Shown here one piece after another: positions 2,541 through 14,361 of a DNA stretch of 64,000 bases; positions within the stretch are counted from its first letter, which is position 1, and every line of letters starts with the position of its first letter. Made by a program: the position numbers and the translations under genes. The DNA is from Pseudodesulfovibrio sp. (GTDB lineage: Bacteria; Desulfobacterota; Desulfovibrionia; Desulfovibrionales; Desulfovibrionaceae): positions 631,029 to 695,028 of the forward strand of contig JADGEX010000001.1 in the NCBI GenBank assembly GCA_016744135.1, given 5' to 3'. A model generated the notes under the pieces. It saw only the letters and a program-made list of their open reading frames with translations. It ran no database searches and had not been told where the DNA came from.

Positions 2541-3617
2541 TTAGCAGCAGTTTGATTCAGTAGATTTCGCCAAAAACACTCGATGTCCAATAAAATAGAC
2601 GGCAATGGCGAGCGCAATGGAGAATGCGACGACAGCGTACTCGAACGAACTTGGGGTATAGGCATAAGTCAGCCTTTGGTCGGCAAACGCGGTTGCAAGT
2701 CCCGGAAGATGCTCTGTCGTCTGGCCGGAAAGGACATGGTCGAATCTCGTCCAGAAGTTCAAAGTGATGACCAGCAATGATGCGATATTCGTCACAGTTC
2801 GGTTGGCAGTTGTCATGAAGAGTAGACAAATTGGCAGGGTCAATCCCAGAATGAGATATGCCCATTCTGTAGGAGTTCCTGCGGAAGAACTGTTCCACAC
2901 ATCGATCATCAAGCTTGAGAACTCAAGCAAGAGATTTAGAAGCAACACACCCAAAAAGATAACGTTCACATTCGTATACGGCTCTTTTTTAGACGTATTG
3001 ATTGCGAACAGAGCAACCAATGCGACTCCTGCAGCAAGTGTCTGGGTGAAATGCTGCATAGGTCCGGCAATGGAATGCCAGTTTGGACTGGATATCAAGG
3101 TCGAGAATTCGCCTCCGTTAATAAACAGCGATAAGGCTGTTCCGAAAACAAGACCGATAACACCGAGAGAAACAATAGAAATCTGTTTTTTCCCGAGTGC
3201 GACGATCGCATAAAGGATAAATGCAAGGTAGATAGGAGTACCCCACGTTGCCAAGGCCAACAAAGATGAAAAATGGGGTCTGTAAAAAACTTCCACCAGT
3301 CGTCCCATATGTCCAAGGTCAAAAGCAATAATAACCAGTCCAGCCGAGATGGCTGCAAATGCTGCAAGCAAAGCAGGACGTATCAAATAAGCGTTTTTCT
3401 GCGAATTAAATGCACAAGCGGCAAATGCAAACAGAGAACAACCGATGCCAATGCCAACGAAAAAGACTTTCGCTGCGACCCAGAGTCCCCATGACACATA
3501 GCTGCCGTATGCCGCCATCTCATGACCGTGTGTGAAGCGCATGGCAACGCCATACAGCCCCCAGGCCATCAGCAGGCCCCATCCGAGGTACAGTGTTTTT
3601 TGTAATGTGTTATTCAC
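2541..3617 (-). CDS. ttrC: NrfD/TtrC-type polytopic membrane subunit
   Basis: Integral membrane quinol-oxidising subunit of the NrfD/PsrC family, 358 residues, which passes electrons from the quinone pool to the iron-sulfur subunit. The sequence is almost entirely hydrophobic helices, about nine or ten, beginning LGWGLLMAWGLYGVAMRF. Polar residues sit between helices, as in PsrC-like proteins. It starts with GTG at 3617. The ribosome binding site AGGAG overlaps the TAG stop of the upstream iron-sulfur gene, so the two are probably translationally coupled. The gene lies between the iron-sulfur and molybdenum subunits, as ttrC does in ttrBCA operons. No haem-binding CxxCH is seen, so this is not a cytochrome-type membrane anchor. 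Confidence 0.82.
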   Translation of the reverse strand: MNNTLQKTLYLGWGLLMAWGLYGVAMRFTHGHEMAAYGSYVSWGLWVAAKVFFVGIGIGCSLFAFAACAFNSQKNAYLIRPALLAAFAAISAGLVIIAFDLGHMGRLVEVFYRPHFSSLLALATWGTPIYLAFILYAIVALGKKQISIVSLGVIGLVFGTALSLFINGGEFSTLISSPNWHSIAGPMQHFTQTLAAGVALVALFAINTSKKEPYTNVNVIFLGVLLLNLLLEFSSLMIDVWNSSSAGTPTEWAYLILGLTLPICLLFMTTANRTVTNIASLLVITLNFWTRFDHVLSGQTTEHLPGLATAFADQRLTYAYTPSSFEYAVVAFSIALAIAVYFIGHRVFLAKSTESNCC

Positions 3618-3626
3618 GATTTACTC

Positions 3627-4475
3627 CTACATCAGGTAAAAAACTGAAGGATTGGTTCCCAGTTCTTCCTTGAGCCGCATGCTGTTTCGCTTGGAACCCA
3701 ACAATTCGCTAACAAGACTGGTTTTATCGTTGATATCGCCAAAGAAAACGCCTGCTCCAAGGCAGGTGGTGACACAAGAAGGCAACATCCCGGCATCAAT
3801 TCTATGCAAGCAGAAGTGGCATTTACGGGCATTACCCATGGGAGAAATGTCTGTCTCCCGGGAGCGCGGCCATTCTTTACCGTATTCAAAGGCTGGACGT
3901 TTTTCGTAGGGCATAATTTCAGGTGTGCCTCTGCCATGAAAATCACCAAAATCAAATGTACGGGCACCATAAGGACATGCGGCGATACAGTTGCGACAAC
4001 CAATACATGCGGAATAATCAATATCCACGATACCATCTGGACGTTTTTGGGTCGCTCCTACCGGGCAGACCGAAACACATGGGGGATTATCACAATGCAT
4101 GCAGGGCCGTGGGATGAAGGTTCTCTTCACGTTCGGAAACGTTCCCACTTCTTCTTCAATAACTGGCCGATAAAGTACTCCCGGAGGGAGATTATTCTCC
4201 GAATTGCAGGCTACAGTGCAAGCCTTGCAGCCAATGCACTTTTGCAGATCAAAAACCATAACCCATTTACGTTCATTTACAGGTTTCCGAAGGGCTTCAT
4301 TCAATTCCTTGCGCATACGCTCAAGGACACTTCCTTCAGCATAAAAATCTGGGTTTTCCATCGTCTGGGCTTCTGCCTTTTTTGAATGGGCAACCCCTAC
4401 GCCGACCGCTGTCATGGTCAACAGGGTTTTTTGTAAAAATTTTCGGCGATCATTTCCGCCTGTGTTCTCCGGCAT
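3627..4475 (-). CDS. ttrB: Tetrathionate reductase-type iron-sulfur subunit with Tat signal
   Basis: Electron-transfer subunit of 282 residues carrying four [4Fe-4S]-type cysteine clusters, bridging the NrfD-type membrane subunit and the molybdenum subunit. The N-terminus has DRRKFLQK plus a hydrophobic segment, a Tat signal, so the protein faces the periplasm. Cysteine groups are [11 protein letters not shown] (about residue 80), [26 protein letters not shown] and a later CHFC with CVTTC. The layout matches DmsB/PsrB/TtrB proteins. It is the first gene of the operon. Its start is about 108 bases downstream of a sigma-54-type promoter on the same strand. TtrB is the preferred name because of the B-C-A order; PsrB- or ArrB-like partners are the alternatives. 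Confidence 0.8.
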
Positions 4476-4582: not shown

Positions 4583-4597
4583 GCAAACGGTATGCCA
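4583..4597 (-). promoter_or_regulatory. Sigma-54 (-24/-12) promoter of ttrBCA
   Basis: On the minus strand the bases read TGGCATACCGTTTGC, matching TGGCAY-N5-TTGC with exactly ten bases between the GG and GC pairs. It points toward the iron-sulfur gene starting at 4475. That would leave a leader of roughly 95 bases. The divergent gene at 5757 encodes a GAFTGA-containing sigma-54 activator, the type of protein such a promoter needs. Confidence 0.8.
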
Positions 4598-4685: not shown

Positions 4686-4771
4686 TGTACAAAAAGTGAA
4701 CAATTTTCTCTTTTACCACTACTAAATACGGTTATTTCAGTATTTTAATTTAAGTGTTCAAAAAGCGAACA
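4686..4771. promoter_or_regulatory. Two 17-bp dyad repeats, probable enhancer sites
   Basis: Two near-identical 17-mers, TGTACAAAAAGTGAACA at 4686-4702 and TGTTCAAAAAGCGAACA at 4755-4771, differ at two positions. Each is an imperfect palindrome of the form TGTTC-N7-GAACA. Their starts are 69 bases apart. They lie about 90-190 bases upstream of the sigma-54 promoter, the usual place for activator enhancer sites. They also sit just before the activator operon, so autoregulation is possible. Binding is inferred. The rest of the 4476-4824 intergenic stretch is AT-rich with no other clear site. Confidence 0.6.
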
Positions 4772-4824: not shown

Positions 4825-5757
4825 ATGCGGCTTAAAAAAATTATTGGAATACTTTTTTTGTTCCTTATGCTGTTCGGGTGTTCAAATGACAGAGATACAG
4901 ATGTGGTTGTAGATTTTACTGAAACGATACCAACAGACATCCCGGTAAATAGATCAAAACGGCCTGTATTGCGTGTGGCTGTCAGTGCGATGATCTCTCC
5001 CGGAGATACGCATGACTATTACCGCCGTATTTTTTCTTATCTAAGCAATAAAATGAATATGGAATTGGAATTTATCCAGCGGAAAACATATGCAGAAGTC
5101 AATGACATGTTGGAAGGCGGCAAGCTTGATGTCGCCTTCATTTGTGCCGGTCCTTATGTTCGTGCCATGCAACGGAACCAACTGACCGCTGTCGCCGCGC
5201 CAGTCGTGGAAGGCAAACATACCTATCAATCCTATCTAATTGTTGGGGCTAACAGCCCTTATGAGACCCTTGCAGATTTGCGAGGAAAGAAATTTGCATT
5301 TACTGATCCGGACTCGAACACAGGACATCTCGTCCCGGTTGCATGGCTTTTTGACATAGGAACTCGCCCGGAAGATTTCTTTGTCGAAACAATTTTCAGC
5401 TACAGTCACGACAATTCGATCATGGCCGTGGCCAAGGGACTCGTTGATGCAGCTAGTGTGGACAGTATTGTATGGGATTTTTACAAGGCCAAATATCCAG
5501 ACTTGGCATCCAAGACGCGGATCATTCGCAAATCAGCCTCTTTTGGTGTGCCACCTATTGTCGCTTCAAGCACGCTTTCCCCCGAGACACGACAGAAAAT
5601 CGCTGGAATTTTGTTAAAAATGCATGAAAAACCAGAGGGACGTGACATCCTTTCCGGATTGCGGATAGATCGGTTCGTGCATCCGAACAATAGTTGGTAC
5701 AAATCTTTGGATGATTTACTTCAGCATGTCGCCAAACATATGGAGGCAGCCAGTTAA
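4825..5757 (+). CDS. PhnD-like substrate-binding lipoprotein
   Basis: Periplasmic binding protein of the PhnD/ArrX/AioX type, 310 residues. The start ATG at 4825 is preceded by GGAGGGGA at a good distance; an in-frame ATG at 4792 lacks such a site. The N-terminus is a lipoprotein signal ending LFGC (C19). Family motifs include DVAFICAGPYVRAM, LADLRGKKFAFTDPDSNTGH and SHDNSIMAVAKGLVDAASVDS. Its stop overlaps the start of the sigma-54 activator gene (TAATG). There is no permease or ATPase nearby, so it is probably a sensory rather than a transport protein. TtrS kinases carry a similar domain fused to their N-terminus, and arsenic systems use a separate one. The ligand is unknown; a sulfur or metalloid oxyanion is the inference from context. 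Confidence 0.82.
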   Translation: MRLKKIIGILFLFLMLFGCSNDRDTDVVVDFTETIPTDIPVNRSKRPVLRVAVSAMISPGDTHDYYRRIFSYLSNKMNMELEFIQRKTYAEVNDMLEGGKLDVAFICAGPYVRAMQRNQLTAVAAPVVEGKHTYQSYLIVGANSPYETLADLRGKKFAFTDPDSNTGHLVPVAWLFDIGTRPEDFFVETIFSYSHDNSIMAVAKGLVDAASVDSIVWDFYKAKYPDLASKTRIIRKSASFGVPPIVASSTLSPETRQKIAGILLKMHEKPEGRDILSGLRIDRFVHPNNSWYKSLDDLLQHVAKHMEAAS

Positions 5758-7940
5758 TGCTCTGGTCGCTCAAAACAAAACTCATTTCAGGCGTACTCGG
5801 ACTGACTGTACTAGCCCTGATTCCCATGGCAGCCCTTTCCTCGAACTACTTCGCTGCCAACCTGCGGGCTCAATTGCGTGAGCGTGCGCATATTCAAGCG
5901 CATTCCCTCGCTTTGCAAGTGACCGATCTAATCCTCATGAACGATAAAGTTGGCCTCCAAAAGGCAATAGACCTCCAACGCGTTGCAGCTCCATACATTT
6001 CATATATATTCATTATTCGGGATGATCGGGTCTTGGCTCAAACATTCGGAGATTCAATTCCTCAAGCCCTTGTGCCAGCCAATGCTCCCTCCTCTGCTGA
6101 ATCGGGTCATTTCCAAACGATTCGATCTGCCAAAGGTGGACGATATCTGGATATTGCATGGCCCGTGTTCAAGGGTGATGCAGGCGTGTTACGAATTGGG
6201 TATTCCTTTGCCCCAATCGAAGAAAAAGTAACGTTGTTCTGGCTAAAAATAGTCGGAATTGCAGTCTGCATTTTTATTCCAGCCTTGGCTTTGGGAGTAC
6301 TGATTGCACGTCAAATTTTTACGCCTATCGCCGAACTTGTTCACGCCACTACCGCCATTGCGGAAGAGAATTACGATGTTCAAATCACGGTACGTGGGCA
6401 CGATGAAGTCGGTATCTTGGCAGAATCATTTAATACAATGGCAGCCACGGTCAAAACGGATAAAGAACGACTTAAGAAACAGGCTACGAGTCTGGAACGA
6501 GCGCACAGCCAACTATCACTCGCGTATGAAGTAATCAAAGGCGTCTCCGGATTTTACTCGCTTGAAGATTTTGGCCCGTTTCTTACGCAAAAAATTCGTG
6601 AAATGGTTTCGTGCGAAGATATTTTAATAATTGTTCCCACCCCTGCTCGCGACACGCTGTTTATCTTGAGTGCGCAAGGAGTCAGAATGGAATATGACAC
6701 CGATGTCATTGCTCAAACCATTACGGCATTGGAATTGACACAGCCCGGAATTCTTATATCTGAACTCCCCATACCTGAGAACCTGCTTCCATTCTCTTTC
6801 TGCCAAGCAGATCAATTCAGTATTGTTTTAAGCCGCGCACATGGTCAATTTAGCAGTGCCCTATGTTTTGCCTCCCCAACGGAACATGAGTCCCGTTTAC
6901 AAGAAGCGGAAATGGCGAGATTAATTCTTTCGCACGTGATGGACAGTATTTTACGCGCCATAGCTCAAGAAGAAGAACTCCGTCGTTTGCGCGTCAGTCC
7001 TAGCAATGATGCAAATTTTTGTGGCATTGTAGGCAGCCATACTTCGATGCAACGAATATATTCGCTCATAGAAAATGCAGGCCCGTCAGACGCTACAGTA
7101 CTCATTCAGGGCGAAAGCGGAACCGGAAAAGAATTGGTGGCTCACGCATTACATGAAAAAAGCTTACGGAAGTCCAAACCGTTTGTAGTCATTAACTGTG
7201 CCGCATACCCTGAAACGCTTATTGAAAGCGAATTGTTCGGATACGAAAAAGGCGCGTTCACCGGCGCAATCAAAACCAAAAAAGGACGTTTTGAACAAGC
7301 TGAAGGCGGAACGGTTTTCCTTGATGAAATCGGAGAAATCCCCCACTCCACACAGGTTAAACTCCTCAGAGTTTTACAAGATCACCAATTCGAAAGGTTG
7401 GGAAGTGACCATACTATTAAAGGAGATATCCGCATTATTGCAGCAACTAATAGGAATCTTGAAAAAGAAGCCAAAACTGGAAATTTCAGAGAAGATCTTT
7501 TTTATCGTCTGAACGTCATTCCCGTTGAATTGCCCGCCTTACGGGAACGCCAAAGCGACATAATCCTGCTGGCAAGACACTTTTTAAAAAAATACGCAAA
7601 ACAACAAGAACGGAAATCCGTAGAAATTCATCCTCGAGTATTTTCAATACTACAAGAATACCCATGGCCTGGAAATGTACGAGAACTGGAAAATGTTATG
7701 GAGCAAGCCGTGGTCCTCGTCCAGAATGACCTCATTACTCCCTCTGACATTTCTTCCCGGTTGGGCACGACAGTCCAGCAATCCCTCCAACAAAGTACAC
7801 TCGTTACCATGGAACAGCAGGCCATTGTCGATGCTTTGGATAAATGCAATTGGAATAAAAGCAAAGCTGCCGAACTTTTAGGAATTGGACGGACCACTCT
7901 CTATTCAAAGATGAAAAAATACAAAATGTCAGTAAAATAA
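5757..7940 (+). CDS. Membrane-bound HAMP-containing sigma-54-dependent activator
   Basis: A 727-residue bacterial enhancer-binding protein that spans the membrane. A first hydrophobic segment lies at about 8-30, a periplasmic region at about 31-158, a second hydrophobic segment at about 161-184, then a HAMP domain (to about 238) and a GAF-like linker. The AAA+ domain from about 420 has GESGTGKE (Walker A), GAFTGA near 499 and GGTVFLDEIGE (Walker B). A Fis-type helix-turn-helix ends the protein (NKSKAAELLGIGRTTLYSKM). There is no receiver or kinase domain, so the signal would pass directly from periplasm to ATPase. It is coupled to the PhnD-like gene and divergent from ttrBCA, whose promoter is sigma-54 type. 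Full-length transmembrane activators of this sort are uncommon. Confidence 0.88.
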   Translation: MLWSLKTKLISGVLGLTVLALIPMAALSSNYFAANLRAQLRERAHIQAHSLALQVTDLILMNDKVGLQKAIDLQRVAAPYISYIFIIRDDRVLAQTFGDSIPQALVPANAPSSAESGHFQTIRSAKGGRYLDIAWPVFKGDAGVLRIGYSFAPIEEKVTLFWLKIVGIAVCIFIPALALGVLIARQIFTPIAELVHATTAIAEENYDVQITVRGHDEVGILAESFNTMAATVKTDKERLKKQATSLERAHSQLSLAYEVIKGVSGFYSLEDFGPFLTQKIREMVSCEDILIIVPTPARDTLFILSAQGVRMEYDTDVIAQTITALELTQPGILISELPIPENLLPFSFCQADQFSIVLSRAHGQFSSALCFASPTEHESRLQEAEMARLILSHVMDSILRAIAQEEELRRLRVSPSNDANFCGIVGSHTSMQRIYSLIENAGPSDATVLIQGESGTGKELVAHALHEKSLRKSKPFVVINCAAYPETLIESELFGYEKGAFTGAIKTKKGRFEQAEGGTVFLDEIGEIPHSTQVKLLRVLQDHQFERLGSDHTIKGDIRIIAATNRNLEKEAKTGNFREDLFYRLNVIPVELPALRERQSDIILLARHFLKKYAKQQERKSVEIHPRVFSILQEYPWPGNVRELENVMEQAVVLVQNDLITPSDISSRLGTTVQQSLQQSTLVTMEQQAIVDALDKCNWNKSKAAELLGIGRTTLYSKMKKYKMSVK

Positions 7941-8282
7941 CCTAAATTTCCCCCCCCCCAATATATGTGTCCCATATCCGTTATCTTCCTCCCCTCCTAA
8001 ATTCACAATGTACCATTTATAGTTCTAATTATTACAAAAAAATCGCAATAAAGAGCCCCCCCATGTGAAGGTGTGCTCTTCGTTTAACTACAGATTGCCA
8101 CCCAATAAATTTTAATGGTCCGCATATGACCACAGCCGCTTGCAGACACGTTTCCTGTATGAATGCGTCAGGCTATTAGCCCCAAAACATCTTGCCATGG
8201 CCCAAATATTCGCCACTACTCAGGCTCAAAAAAACGTACACGCCTTGACGCCCCCGTCATCAGATGTTGAATATACTCTCCC
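7941..8282. other. Intergenic stretch without a recognised gene
   Basis: A region of 342 bases with no convincing coding sequence. The only structure seen is a 6-bp inverted repeat AAGAGC/GCTCTT at 8051-8080 enclosing a C-tract. It may be a weak terminator for the activator gene, but no T-run follows. Confidence 0.4.
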
Positions 8283-9193: not shown

Positions 9194-11701
9194 ATGCGAA
9201 CACTCTCCTCTTTAATTGACACCTCGACTCTATACCACAGCCAGCGACTAATGCGTGCCCTTTCCGTGATTCACATCAAGCCAATCTCGTTCATTCATGC
9301 CCCCATGGGGTACGGAAAGACTGTAGCCGTTAGAAAATACCTTCAGAAAGAAAAAAATCAGACCATCTGGGTTTCCGTGTTAACCAAAGATAAGGACGCC
9401 TTTTGGCGAGATTTCTGCTGTGTGCTTCGTAAAAATTTGCCCAAAGAAGTCGATCTTCTGGAAGCTGTGGAAAAACTTGGCTACCCTACCGATTCCGTAA
9501 AAATGGATACAGTCCGAGGTCTGTTCGCCCGTCTGAATTATCCCTCCAAAGCAGTACTGGTTTTTGACGATGTGCACCTGTTGCAGGAATCAGAGGCTGG
9601 ACAGCTTATTCAGCTTTGCCTGCTTCTCGCTCGCCAAGGAGTTTTCCCTCCAATTGTATTCATTTCTCGCCATGCGCCGAGTCAAATGCTCGCAGAACCT
9701 TTACTTAAGGGGATTATAACGGAAATCGGCCCCACCTTTTTTGCACTTAACAAGAAAGAAATGCAGGCCTACTTCAAACAATGTGGCATCTTGCTAGATG
9801 AAACGGATACTGCAAAATTGCTCAAGGCGACAGGCGGCTGGATAAGCGCATTGTATCTGTATCTGCTGCATTATTCTCAGCATGGAAAAATGGCAGCTCC
9901 CACGGAACTGTCAGCACTGTTGACAAATCAGGTCTTCGACAAACTGCAAGATGAGACAAAGCACCTGCTTATAGCCCTTTCTCCCTTGGAAAAATTCACC
10001 GTGCATCAGGCAAAGCTCTGTTATAATAATGCGGAGGCAGTCCTTGCAGATATCCTACGTCGTAATGCATTTATCAGCTACGATTCGACGACAGAAAGTT
10101 ACATACTTCACGCTCTGTTCCGAGATTTTTTGCTACAACATTTTAAAACATTGCCGGTGGGACAGCAGCAAAAAATCTATCTGGATAATGCCAAATGGTT
10201 AATTGAACATGACGAAATACGAAAAGCAGTCAAACTCCTAAAGGAAATTCACGACGACACTGAGACACTCGATCTATTGGACACAGTAGTTGAACACCTG
10301 CCTGTCACGGAAGGAAACGGCCTGTTGATGGACCTTTTCCGTACATGCAGCCCGGATTCCATGAATCAATATCCCGGCGTCATGTTTCGATATGCCATGG
10401 CAGCCCTCAGCTCCAAGGATCTGCCAACTTTTTCTGACTTACTTGCTCGCCTGGGACACTATTGCTCCTCCTTACCCGAGAATGATCCGACAGCTAACGG
10501 TTGGAAAGGTGAGATGGAGCTTTTACGCGCTTTCACCAAGTACAACGACATCGTGGCCATGGCGGCCCACCACAAACGGGCTGCACAATTTTTCCAGCAA
10601 TCGGAAAACAATGGCAGCCGTCTTTCAGGACAAGACCCATGGACTATGGGATCTCCTTCGGTTCTATATATGTTTCATAGAAAAAGCGGGATGTTGGAAA
10701 AAGAACTGAAACAAATGCACGACTGCCTGCCACAATATTCGCAACTCACAGGTATGCACGGAGCCGGAGCGGAAGATATCATGTTGGCAGAGGCGTTATA
10801 TAATGCCGGGAAATTCGAATCTGCCGCTATCGCCAGTCATCAGGCTCTGTCAACGGCTCAGGCGTACAAGCAAATTGACATTGAAGTATGCGCTCTTTTT
10901 CTACTTGCCCGATTAGAAATGCAACATGGTGAATACGACAAATCCATAAATCAATTACAAATCATGCGAAAACGTGTGGAAGAAGAAAAGGCCTTTTCTC
11001 TGCTGCAAACAACGGATTTATGCACTGGTTTTTTGCATATGAGTATTCACCGACCGGAAAGAATCCCCAATTGGTTGCTGCAAGACGGTGAAAAAAAGCT
11101 CTATGCTTTCGCCGGGGGCTGGGCCTACATCGTGTTTGGCGGCACCTTGTTACTCAACAGGGAACACGCAAAATTGGTTGCCCACTTTTCTCGCCTTATA
11201 CAAAAGGGCACGTACCGCCAAAACATCATGTTCTCCATCTATGCAAATCTATTTATTGCTGCGGGTAACACGGGGTTGGGTTTATATGCAAAGGCGGACA
11301 CGGCGCTCTTTGCCGCTCTGGAATTAGCACTGCCGGACAAAATATATATGCCTTTTGCAACAAACTCTACATTTTTGCCGCAGCTAAAAGGCCTGAAAGA
11401 CGACGATTTATATGGCTACGATATTCACCGCATCTTGCAACTGTCCACCAAATTGGAAAAAGTCCGCAACGGCATCATTTCCCGATTCTTCTCAAAGGCG
11501 ACCCCTCCCCTCACTCCTCGGGAGAACGAACTTGGACGATTGGCCATGACCGGTATGACGTATAAAGAAATCGCCGTTGCCGCAGGTTTGGCTCCGAATT
11601 CTGTTAAACGCTATTTTGCCGCCTTGTATAAAAAACTCGGTATAAACAATCGAGAACAGTTAAAAAATTATTTCTTGAAGCAAGAAAATAATATTTTTTA
11701 G
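9194..11701 (+). CDS. MalT-like LuxR-family ATP-dependent transcriptional regulator
   Basis: An 835-residue regulator with the signal-transducing ATPase architecture of MalT and LAL proteins. A P-loop APMGYGKT lies at residues 36-43 and a Walker B-like AVLVFDDVHLL near 120. The middle region from about 340 to 760 is helical and TPR-like. A LuxR-type helix-turn-helix occupies about 770-830 (PLTPRENELGRLAMTGMTYKEIAVAAGL). Such proteins bind an inducer through the helical domain and activate transcription as oligomers. The gene ends in front of a strong terminator at 11864. The nearest downstream targets in the same orientation are the autotransporter, FecR and Sel1 genes, but control of these is only a guess from proximity. 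Confidence 0.85.
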   Translation: MRTLSSLIDTSTLYHSQRLMRALSVIHIKPISFIHAPMGYGKTVAVRKYLQKEKNQTIWVSVLTKDKDAFWRDFCCVLRKNLPKEVDLLEAVEKLGYPTDSVKMDTVRGLFARLNYPSKAVLVFDDVHLLQESEAGQLIQLCLLLARQGVFPPIVFISRHAPSQMLAEPLLKGIITEIGPTFFALNKKEMQAYFKQCGILLDETDTAKLLKATGGWISALYLYLLHYSQHGKMAAPTELSALLTNQVFDKLQDETKHLLIALSPLEKFTVHQAKLCYNNAEAVLADILRRNAFISYDSTTESYILHALFRDFLLQHFKTLPVGQQQKIYLDNAKWLIEHDEIRKAVKLLKEIHDDTETLDLLDTVVEHLPVTEGNGLLMDLFRTCSPDSMNQYPGVMFRYAMAALSSKDLPTFSDLLARLGHYCSSLPENDPTANGWKGEMELLRAFTKYNDIVAMAAHHKRAAQFFQQSENNGSRLSGQDPWTMGSPSVLYMFHRKSGMLEKELKQMHDCLPQYSQLTGMHGAGAEDIMLAEALYNAGKFESAAIASHQALSTAQAYKQIDIEVCALFLLARLEMQHGEYDKSINQLQIMRKRVEEEKAFSLLQTTDLCTGFLHMSIHRPERIPNWLLQDGEKKLYAFAGGWAYIVFGGTLLLNREHAKLVAHFSRLIQKGTYRQNIMFSIYANLFIAAGNTGLGLYAKADTALFAALELALPDKIYMPFATNSTFLPQLKGLKDDDLYGYDIHRILQLSTKLEKVRNGIISRFFSKATPPLTPRENELGRLAMTGMTYKEIAVAAGLAPNSVKRYFAALYKKLGINNREQLKNYFLKQENNIF

Positions 11702-12282: not shown

Positions 12283-14361
12283 ATGCGGCCTATCTACAAT
12301 ATTATTTTCTCTCCAAACCGTCTCACCCTTTTTGTTTTATTGCCCATGCTCCTAGCCCTGCTCCAGTGCTTACCAGCCCAGGCGGCCAGCGTTAACACAA
12401 CTCCGGGTGGAGACATTGATATTAGCGGCGACGGTTCCATCGTTGTTATCAATCGAAACAATAACATTTACGCAAGTCCCAGTTCCCTCGGCAGCAGCAC
12501 CCTCATAGATTCCTCAGCCGAGATTGTTGGTATATCACAAGACGGGTCTCATATTCTTGGAAAAAAAAATTCGAATTTTTTTTATATATACTCCGGGACG
12601 AATCACCAAACAACAACTTTTTTGACTCCGCTAATAGCAACCCCGGACTTAGCAGGGATCAGTTCAGATGGTCATGCCGTTTTCGGTTCACGGCTTAGTG
12701 TCGGCGCACCAAATGAAGCATTGATAGCGGTATCCTCCGACAACTGGACCACTGCAGGTGGTATTACTGATTATTCGATCTCGTACGGTCCCACAGGGTC
12801 AATGCCCGACCTCAATGCCATCAGTAACAACATCGCCGGGGTAAGAACAGCTGTAGGAGCTATGGCAAACAAACCAATGACATGGGAAACACCCACCGTC
12901 GGGAATACTTTGGTTGGCACGCCTTTATCCCTTGGGAGTTATACTAGTGGGTCCGCACGGGACATTACCGACGATGGGTCGATGGCAGTCGGAAATGTCA
13001 ATACAACATATCACCATGCAGCTATATGGAATATAATGACCAATTCACTGACTGTTCTCCCGTCCGGTGGCTATAATAACCAAAACGCTAATTTCGTTAA
13101 CAAAAACGGTTCAGTCATTGTTGGTGATGTTTGTAGTGCAATCTCAGAAGTAGCCATTTGGACAGAAAATGGTAACTCCTACACGGTTCAAACGCTTTAT
13201 GACGCTCTCATAAGCAAAGGCGTACAAACGGACCCCAATAATTATTTCATGACCGCCACAGGCTTAAGTGACGATGGCGACCTCATTACGGGACAGAGAG
13301 CTGATAGTACAATGTTCATTGCCAACCTTGGCGCGGGTGGAGTGATCACCACTGAGCAATTGAACGAATCTCTGGCAACCATGGGGCAAGTCGGATCAGC
13401 GGTTTCCGGAATGGGCCAGCTTTCCATGAGTCGTCTGGGCAACGTGGCGGGCGGACAAGGCGCACATTTTCACGTAACCACCCCCGGCACCGAGACTGCC
13501 GGAGGTGGAGCCGAACGAGGTCTGTCGAGCGGTGATGAAATGCCGGGAAGCATGGACCTGTGGGTCATTGGCTCCGTGGGATCAAACATTGAGCTGAATG
13601 GCGATGACCTCGGTCTGCGCGGCGGTGTCGGCTTGACCTGGGACAACGGCAACGAATGGCGTTTTGGCGGCGGCGTGTTTGGTGACATGCGGGATTTGAA
13701 GACAAATCACGGTGGCGACCAAAGTATCCGAGCCATCGGACCCGGTGTTTTTGCCGTCTACTCTCCGGAACAAACCGGATTTGAATTCCGCCTGTCTGCT
13801 TTATGGCAATCCGTGGCGCTAGACCTGACACGAGGCTATGCCAATGGCGCAGGAAGTGCCACTTCATCCGGCTCCACAGACGCAAATGTCTTCGGTCTTT
13901 CCGGTCGAGTACAGTGGACAAAAAACATGACCGATTCTTTCGACCTGACGCCTTTCGCCGAATACACTTGGCAAACCACGCATATCGACAGTTACTCAGA
14001 ATCCGGGGGCCCTTTCCCGGCCAGCTTTGAAAGCCGAACTGAAACATCCAACTCTATCCGGGCAGGCCTTAGAGCCGACGCGGCCCTCTTCGACAAAGTC
14101 GGCACTTGGGCCTGGTTGGCCTGGGATCATCGCTTTGAGGACTCCTCCGCAGGTATGGGCGGCAGCACAATCGGCTTGGGAGCGTTCACCTATCCCGGCG
14201 CAAAATTGGACCAAGACTGGGCCGATGCGGGTGTCGGTGCAAGCTGGGACATCACCGAACGTTTGGAAGCTACTTCCAGCCTCGGATTCGCCATGGGGTG
14301 TGACGACGAAACCGTCCCCGACCTCACCGCCACCATGGGGCTCAGCTATCAACTCTGGTAG
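12283..14361 (+). CDS. Autotransporter with HAF-type repeats in the passenger
   Basis: A 692-residue type V-secreted protein. A long signal peptide covers about residues 1-34 (ending PAQAA). The passenger, about 35-420, contains recurring units like GISQDGSHILG, GISSDGHAVFG and DITDDGSMAVGN followed by AAIW or VAIW, resembling extracellular HAF repeats. The C-terminal region from about residue 423 has alternating amphipathic strands and ends in an aromatic residue (SYQLW), as autotransporter beta-barrels do. AAGGAG precedes the ATG. The beta-barrel should insert in the outer membrane and display the passenger. The target of the passenger is unknown. It is followed 97 bases later by a FecR-domain gene. 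Confidence 0.82.
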   Translation: MRPIYNIIFSPNRLTLFVLLPMLLALLQCLPAQAASVNTTPGGDIDISGDGSIVVINRNNNIYASPSSLGSSTLIDSSAEIVGISQDGSHILGKKNSNFFYIYSGTNHQTTTFLTPLIATPDLAGISSDGHAVFGSRLSVGAPNEALIAVSSDNWTTAGGITDYSISYGPTGSMPDLNAISNNIAGVRTAVGAMANKPMTWETPTVGNTLVGTPLSLGSYTSGSARDITDDGSMAVGNVNTTYHHAAIWNIMTNSLTVLPSGGYNNQNANFVNKNGSVIVGDVCSAISEVAIWTENGNSYTVQTLYDALISKGVQTDPNNYFMTATGLSDDGDLITGQRADSTMFIANLGAGGVITTEQLNESLATMGQVGSAVSGMGQLSMSRLGNVAGGQGAHFHVTTPGTETAGGGAERGLSSGDEMPGSMDLWVIGSVGSNIELNGDDLGLRGGVGLTWDNGNEWRFGGGVFGDMRDLKTNHGGDQSIRAIGPGVFAVYSPEQTGFEFRLSALWQSVALDLTRGYANGAGSATSSGSTDANVFGLSGRVQWTKNMTDSFDLTPFAEYTWQTTHIDSYSESGGPFPASFESRTETSNSIRAGLRADAALFDKVGTWAWLAWDHRFEDSSAGMGGSTIGLGAFTYPGAKLDQDWADAGVGASWDITERLEATSSLGFAMGCDDETVPDLTATMGLSYQLW

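Follow-up and report, generated by a model that had tools for sequence, protein, structure and literature searches.

How might a signal in the periplasm reach a sigma54 promoter when the adjoining genes encode neither a histidine kinase nor a receiver domain? The question is raised by a locus of Pseudodesulfovibrio sp. (GenBank assembly GCA_016744135.1, contig JADGEX010000001.1). We analysed a stretch of 64,000 nucleotides (nt), further referred to as the window; coordinates without a locus prefix are positions within it. Two adjacent genes, here called X and R, encode a periplasmic binding lipoprotein and a transmembrane sigma54 activator, and a TtrBCA-like reductase operon is divergent from X. 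Activators of sigma54 promoters usually respond to phosphorylation or to ligands in the cytoplasm. We propose that X and R probably constitute a two-part, phosphorylation-free transmembrane switch for this operon.

In this mechanism, the periplasmic lipoprotein X would bind a tetrahedral arsenate-like oxyanion, and ligand-bound X would dock onto the sCache-like periplasmic domain of an R dimer. The change would be relayed through the second transmembrane helix, the HAMP domain and a GAF-like region, and the AAA+ domains would then assemble. Still anchored in the membrane, R would bind the repeats at 4686–4702 and 4755–4771 and, while tethered, remodel sigma54-RNA polymerase at the promoter at 4597–4583, thus switching the operon on; its TtrA-like enzyme would reduce an arsenic-type oxyanion. 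The sequence itself gives the domains, the overlap of the two genes, the promoter-like site, the inverted repeats, the pocket residues and the conserved pairing; that X touches R, what the ligand is and that an AAA+ ring tethered to the membrane activates the promoter are what we infer.

Binding protein X

The start codon of X was selected by the GGAGGGGAG motif immediately 5' of it. The protein has a lipobox, LMLFGC, with Cys19, and it matches the Pfam family Phosphonate-bd (PF12974) with an E-value of 2.7e-67. In comparison with sequences from PDB, ArrX (191.7 bits) and AioX (166.5 bits) are far in front of PtxB (76 bits) and PhnD (52.7 bits). By sequence X is thus closest to the AioX/ArrX/ArxX binding-protein subfamily rather than to PhnD/PtxB. 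An earlier note, made from the DNA letters, had described a binding lipoprotein encoded by a gene overlapping that of the activator, of the type fused to TtrS or used as AioX/ArrX. The lipobox and the single nucleotide shared by X and R (TAATG) agree with the first part of this description. As to the type, AioX/ArrX holds and TtrS does not: X scored 16 bits with the NCBIfam TtrS model at a cut-off of 750, and a TtrS-type sensor identity was rejected.

The binding pocket of AioX is formed by Tyr88, Cys106, Tyr131, Ser161, Ser163, His192 and Asp210 (PMC5908839). Six of these seven residues, including the arsenite-binding cysteine, are identical in X, and Ser163 is replaced by Thr; the equivalent of Tyr131 is one of two alignment columns, with Tyr in both. 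Among X proteins partnered with R, Cys occupies the position of Cys106 in all 43 rows that have a residue in this column, and likewise in the two partial rows.

Activator R

Pfam domains, hydrophobicity and motifs agree with the earlier description of R as a protein with two membrane spans, a periplasmic region and a HAMP domain joined to a GAFTGA ATPase and a Fis-type helix-turn-helix, and Pfam found neither a receiver nor a histidine-kinase domain in it. The hydrophobic stretches cover about residues 7–30 and 156–195. The Sigma54_activat match spans residues 424–590 and the AAA lid, 596–676; Walker A is at residue 452, GAFTGA at 499 and Walker B at 517. Judged by its sequence, R is an enhancer-binding protein, with a GAFTGA-containing AAA+ domain, Walker motifs and a Fis-type helix-turn-helix. 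It is also the only frame sharing a HAMP match among the 35 Sigma54_activat matches of the genome (positions and frame lengths were compared by eye).

Two further features go beyond the earlier description. The periplasmic part matches sCache_3_2 weakly (23.8 bits, below the gathering score of 28.4), and 7 of 19 relatives match it at E ≤ 0.1. Ahead of the AAA+ domain there is a GAF-like stretch: GAF_2 was matched in 8 of the 19 relatives, R of the window itself having no GAF match. Cache domains with a transcription-factor output are known, such outputs being rare for sCache_3_2 (3 of 2499; Table 1 of PMC4822843, in the accessible part of that paper).

Divergent operon and its promoter-like site

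The operon divergent from X has the order TtrB-TtrC-TtrA-like. The full catalytic subunit falls below the TtrA equivalog level (456.8 bits, NCBIfam cut-off 1750), and on the NCBIfam ArrA model it scored 53.1 bits in the best stretch (cut-off 1600). The sequence upstream of this putative target operon matches a sigma54 promoter. With weights of our own choice the site scored 0.98, a value not reached in any of 200 first-order Markov shuffles of the intergenic sequence. The pattern TGGC-N7-TTGC occurs twice in the entire window against 2.7 occurrences expected; there is no enrichment, and the location is the informative part.

Two 17-bp inverted repeats lie farther upstream, at a distance of roughly 90 to 175 bp from the promoter-like site. 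They are identical at 15 of 17 positions, and such a pair arose in 2 of 2000 shuffles. These repeats are natural candidates for the binding sites of R.

Conservation of the X–R pair

Loci with R were collected in three ways: by searching 148 genomes of relatives, by scanning 84,980 species genomes for two peptide patterns, and by an X-profile search in 395 genomes of the phylum. The scan yielded 24 loci, one of which (L085) is a weak match to kinases. As regards the phylum range of R, the peptide patterns were short and the X-profile search covered one phylum. After identical entries had been removed, 49 distinct R loci (45 groups at 90% identity) were retained; two truncated copies of R are outside this set. 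Lengths of flanks vary and some loci stop at contig ends, hence absences apply to the sequence retrieved per locus.

Where at least 1 kb of upstream sequence is available (45 distinct loci), X adjoins R in 44; in L080 X is present as two frames. HAMP-sigma54 fusions next to PhnD-like genes, for which the earlier note had suggested a profile search, are thus present beyond the window, and by sequence the X–R pair is a conserved module in the relatives. A motif search revealed no ABC-ATPase-like frames within about 3–4.5 kb of R in the 49 loci, as expected if X is a sensing rather than a transport protein.

Neighbouring enzymes are of two types: ArrA-type in 13 and TtrA-like in 21 of the 49 loci, both together in none. 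In the 33 loci with at least 6 kb downstream, these numbers are 11 and 18, with neither type in four. All five tested ArrA-type proteins of the relatives scored 1137–1295 bits on the ArrA model, below its cut-off of 1600. Nine of the 49 loci had no testable region and were left out of the promoter test. In 29 of the 40 testable loci, a sigma54-like site precedes the next receiver-like or reductase gene at p ≤ 0.05 (200 shuffles each). The lowest score of these 29 was 0.82, a value that the reverse-strand control reached in one of 40 cases.

Kinase-partnered relatives and origin of the pair

No kinase gene was found inside the X–R operon in any of the 49 loci, in the sequence retrieved. Kinase genes are present within 12 kb in six loci, the closest being a 110-amino-acid (aa) kinase fragment in L159, which is on the opposite strand some 0.4 kb upstream of X. 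In the genome of the window, about 38 kb separate X–R from the nearest HATPase_c match.

Assignment of partners by a script divided 89 distinct X-like proteins into 46 adjoining R, 37 adjoining a histidine kinase and six adjoining neither; one of the last six (L166) actually adjoins R, the start of which had been called too early. Six partners of X missed by the initial kinase profile turned out to be HisKA_3 kinases (Pfam was applied to five); the kinase test includes them, and the count within 12 kb is still six of 49. The tree of X was built for 81 rows: eight of the 89 proteins were left out as short, weak or double-domain, and L166 was labelled by hand as R-partnered. The 45 R-partnered rows require two label changes on this tree, compared with a mean of 26.7 for shuffled labels, and the well-supported branches force only one. 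R-partnered X proteins are therefore nearly a single group amid kinase-partnered relatives as far as the tree goes, which fits a single origin with the kinase part replaced by a sigma54 output. The pair seems to be the known X-S-R arsenic sensor rewired without its kinase.

The partner kinases resemble R in their sensory part. All ten examined with Pfam have HAMP and HATPase_c domains, and eight have sCache_3_2 at E ≤ 0.01, one of these below the gathering score. With the profile of the periplasmic domain of R, 30 of the 37 partner kinases scored 24–82 bits and the remaining seven at most 9.7 bits or had no match; 16 non-partner kinases from the same loci scored at most 1.4 bits.

The genome of the window contains a second X (L010:3915-7316), where X2 has as neighbours a histidine kinase (sCache_3-HAMP-PAS) and a lone receiver; molybdoenzyme genes are close by. 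The pocket of this X2 differs, with Asn in place of Cys; together with fifteen kinase-partnered X proteins it has another pocket type with Phe, Asn, Gln and Arg. As a separate observation, two loci (L177:6257-7987 and L178:6285-8141) encode two X-like domains per chain, adjoining a kinase and an NtrC-type activator, and in L177 there are ars-like frames nearby.

Alternatives to the two-part switch

Several observations weigh against direct signalling from X to R. To begin with, a receiver-like protein (118–211 aa as called) is encoded in 35 of the 49 loci, in 32 of them immediately after R and in the same orientation (for example, L063:9731-10108, L070:3348-3734 and L081:12508-12882). This frequency leaves room for a phosphorylation input in the family overall. 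A distant kinase might act on R through the receiver-like protein, or by some other route, and the retention of the phospho-acceptor Asp in 17 and of the Lys in 15 of 18 aligned proteins agrees with that; Pfam Response_reg matches 13 of the 18, and the HPxL motif is conserved. In the N-terminal acidic pair, however, only three of the 18 retain the first Asp. Moreover, no such protein was found at the locus or elsewhere in the genome of the window, where the best match is 35.7 bits, compared with 84–158 bits in relatives, and no kinase gene was found in the X–R operons. We consider involvement of phosphorylation improbable; feedback or an anti-activator function is one possibility for the receiver-like protein. 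As far as gene order goes, the kinase-free coupling suggested in the earlier note is supported for the window, where it has the absence of a kinase and a receiver, the conserved pair, the sigma54 promoter and the distant HATPase_c match on its side, and is weakened for the relatives by the receiver-like protein.

The periplasmic domain is less peculiar to X-associated proteins than the partner kinases alone would suggest. Its profile gave 31–60 bits on ten selected top matches with no X within 1.5 kb, and 35–37 bits on two of 35 kinase frames of the window genome, also with no X within 1.5 kb (the frames scored come from loci for 30 of 74 HATPase_c matches). The hypothesis that the domain is specific to binding-protein partners was therefore dropped: this is a general sCache-type domain and no proof of docking. 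In addition, in L069:9989-13150, the only well-flanked R locus without X, the receiver-like gene is retained and no reductase genes were recognised nearby. Some sCache_3 domains bind small acids directly. Given the resemblance to sCache_3, the occurrence of similar domains away from X and the L069 locus, R might sense a small ligand by itself, X being a co-transcribed accessory dispensable for signalling. Such an arrangement seems unlikely in view of the nearly constant adjacency of X and R with no ABC-ATPase-like frame near them, and of the sensing function of the characterised proteins nearest to X (PMC5908839).

Evolutionary distances do not single out a contact between the two proteins either. 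In 40 pairs, the distances of X correlated with those of the periplasmic domain at 0.80, of the GAF-like region at 0.84 and of the AAA+ domain at 0.77. Since the correlation with the periplasmic domain is no higher than that with the GAF-like region, the mirror-tree approach was rejected as a sign of contact. The promoter data contain exceptions as well: 11 of the 40 testable loci have no clear sigma54 site, and the score of 0.82 was reached by 4 of 35 stretches upstream of X.

Finally, R might act on DNA as a soluble GAF-AAA-HTH fragment freed by signal-dependent proteolysis, and not at the membrane. The genome contains a sensorless truncated copy of R with an open frame of 445 aa, which indicates that the soluble part might be stable alone. 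The position of HAMP between sensor and output, on the other hand, generally argues for conformational transfer, and we regard proteolytic release as very improbable. The truncated copy is 93.5% identical to R over 445 aa (43 of 48 in the helix-turn-helix) and is located beside another sigma54 activator (L041:4782-6119 (-), L042:5997-7489). In a genome of the same genus it is split over two frames, and there are transposase-like frames nearby, as judged by eye. Given these features and the missing sensor, we rejected it as a donor of a chimera; it appears to be an old partial duplicate. Around it, no inverted repeats resembling those of the window were found with up to three mismatches allowed.

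Ligand and enzyme substrate

For the two-part switch of X and R, which remains the reading we favour, the ligand is suggested by comparison with characterised proteins. ArrX and AioX have the same pocket and bind different ligands, arsenate and arsenite, respectively; neither bound tetrathionate or thiosulfate, and specificity is not set by the pocket residues (PMC5908839). The loop of ArrX is shorter and more polar than that of AioX (PMC5908839). The stretch adjoining the pocket loop in X of the window resembles ArrX, which suggests that its ligand may be arsenate.

Arsenic-related genes are present at some of the related loci. Of 29 well-flanked loci, seven have an ACR3 arsenite-efflux gene in the vicinity, and four of these seven are TtrA-like loci; as a rough yardstick, three SBF-family matches in the 3.97 Mb of the window genome correspond to about 2% expected per 24 kb. 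Checked with NCBIfam, the ACR3 proteins comprise six full equivalogs and a 103-aa fragment (L148); ArsA is above its cut-off, and one of two ArsR-like proteins exceeds the ArsR/SmtB cut-off, the other falling just short of it. The genes arsA and acr3 are immediately upstream of X in Desulfovibrio sp. A2.

The enzyme type changes readily between closely related pairs. L055 (ArrA) and L056 (TtrA-like) have X proteins identical at 81% and R proteins identical at 85% of positions. On the R tree, from which two of the 49 proteins were left out as short, the Arr/Ttr label changes nine times among 34 labelled rows. Tracking of the R tree by the enzyme type was rejected, as the types are hardly clustered: the Ttr label requires 13 changes compared with a shuffled mean of 15.6, and 70 of 500 shuffles were as low. 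The TtrA/SrdA family is described as containing archaeal arsenate reductases (PMC7331816, PMC10100899; accessible parts of both). Close X–R relatives preceding either ArrA or TtrA-like genes, the nearby ACR3 genes and the composition of the TtrA/SrdA family together suggest that TtrA-like enzymes under X–R control may be arsenate reductases.

A wider proposal is made tentatively, as a possibility that we would not call probable: that sulfate reducers and their relatives have an entire clade of arsenic-oxyanion sensors that has lost kinase and receiver, in which a binding protein directly drives a membrane AAA+ sigma54 activator by a stoichiometric relay free of phosphate, and that the TtrBCA-like enzymes, including that of the window, are alternative respiratory arsenate/antimonate reductases and not tetrathionate reductases. 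The arsenic reading has to be set against the following points. A rhodanese gene follows ttrA outside the window and suggests sulfur over arsenic; no ars genes were seen near the window locus; no ArrA above the model cut-off was found in the window genome; and ttrBCA of the sulfate reducer Pseudodesulfovibrio methanolicus is annotated as tetrathionate reductase (PMC11505543, accessible part).

Other features of the window

Features of the locus are listed in Table 1. A run of ten C is present at 7950–7959, right after the stop codon of R. Further downstream there is a gene of a large MalT/LuxR-type regulator (9194–11701; 135 bits on the MalT model, cut-off 537), followed by an open reading frame judged by eye to be autotransporter-like (12283–14361).

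Table 1. Features of the X–R locus and the divergent operon, with positions in the window.
Feature	Position	Strand	Basis
TtrA-like molybdopterin catalytic subunit, 1046 aa in genome	1..2529, extends beyond window	-	TtrA model
TtrC/NrfD-like membrane subunit	2541..3617	-	PF03916 51.4 bits; TtrC model 33.8 bits
TtrB/ArrB/DsrO-like iron-sulfur subunit	3627..4475	-	profile matches
Sigma54 -24/-12 promoter-like site TGGCATACCGTTTGC ahead of TtrBCA-like operon	4583..4597	-	exact TGGC-N7-TTGC
Candidate activator site 1, TGTACAAAAAGTGAACA, arms paired at 4/5 positions	4686..4702	.	inverted repeat
Candidate activator site 2, perfect inverted repeat TGTTC-N7-GAACA	4755..4771	.	inverted repeat
X, ArrX/AioX-like periplasmic binding lipoprotein, 310 aa	4825..5757	+	Pfam PF12974, PDB-sequence comparison
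X pocket columns Y89, C107, Y134/Y137, S164, T166, H195, D213			
R, transmembrane sigma54 activator, 727 aa	5757..7940	+	Pfam HAMP, Sigma54_activat, AAA_lid_14, HTH_8
R periplasmic domain, sCache_3-like, residues 30-160	5844..6236	+	weak sCache_3_2 match
R HAMP, residues 182-232	6300..6452	+	PF00672 50.1 bits
R GAF-like region, about residues 265-400, limits approximate	6549..6956	+	GAF_2 in relatives
R AAA+ domain with GAFTGA, residues 424-676	7026..7784	+	PF00158 242.6 bits, PF25601 92.6 bits
R Fis-type helix-turn-helix (HTH_8), residues 684-722	7806..7922	+	PF02954 60.8 bits

Comparison with known systems

TtrSR resembles the system of the window in combining a binding-protein-like sensor with a TtrBCA-like operon. 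However, TtrS is the tetrathionate-sensing histidine kinase of that pair, and X scored only 16 bits on its model (cut-off 750).

In ToxR and CadC a single membrane protein senses in the periplasm and binds DNA without phosphorylation, and CadC also receives a signal from a partner protein, LysP (PMC5936718, accessible part). Unlike R, these regulators are of the winged-helix type and not sigma54 AAA+ proteins, and no periplasmic binding-protein partner is described for them in that part of the source. Sensors, transmembrane helices and HAMP joined through signalling helices to NtrC-like AAA+ domains are an architecture already on record and similar to that of R; the accessible part of the source (PMC1592074) mentions neither a binding-protein partner nor a link to arsenic. 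One-component enhancer-binding proteins of Desulfovibrio vulgaris are receiver-less sigma54 activators often adjoining their target operon (PMC4641369, accessible part), and the term HAMP is absent from that text.

No description of the coupling of an AioX/ArrX-type protein to a membrane sigma54 activator was found in the open-licence literature, surveyed mostly by titles and the openings of abstracts. If the proposed switch exists, an AAA+ remodelling ATPase can work while tethered to the membrane and be signalled directly by a periplasmic binding protein, and X–R would be a compact two-gene biosensor part. The pair would further make it possible to test which enzymes of sulfate reducers annotated as tetrathionate reductase in fact respire arsenic compounds.

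The closest likeness in sensor and setting is with AioXSR, ArxXSR and ArrXSR (PMC5908839; PMC7533571, accessible part): a protein of the ArrX/AioX type, the same pocket residues and an adjoining molybdoenzyme operon. AioR and ArxR have an AAA+ domain, and RpoN promoters are found at their targets (PMC5908839; PMC7533571, accessible part). In those systems a histidine kinase S stands between X and R and the response regulator has a receiver. At the locus described here R follows X directly and lacks a receiver, and the sensor, the HAMP domain and the sigma54 AAA+ output are contained in one protein.

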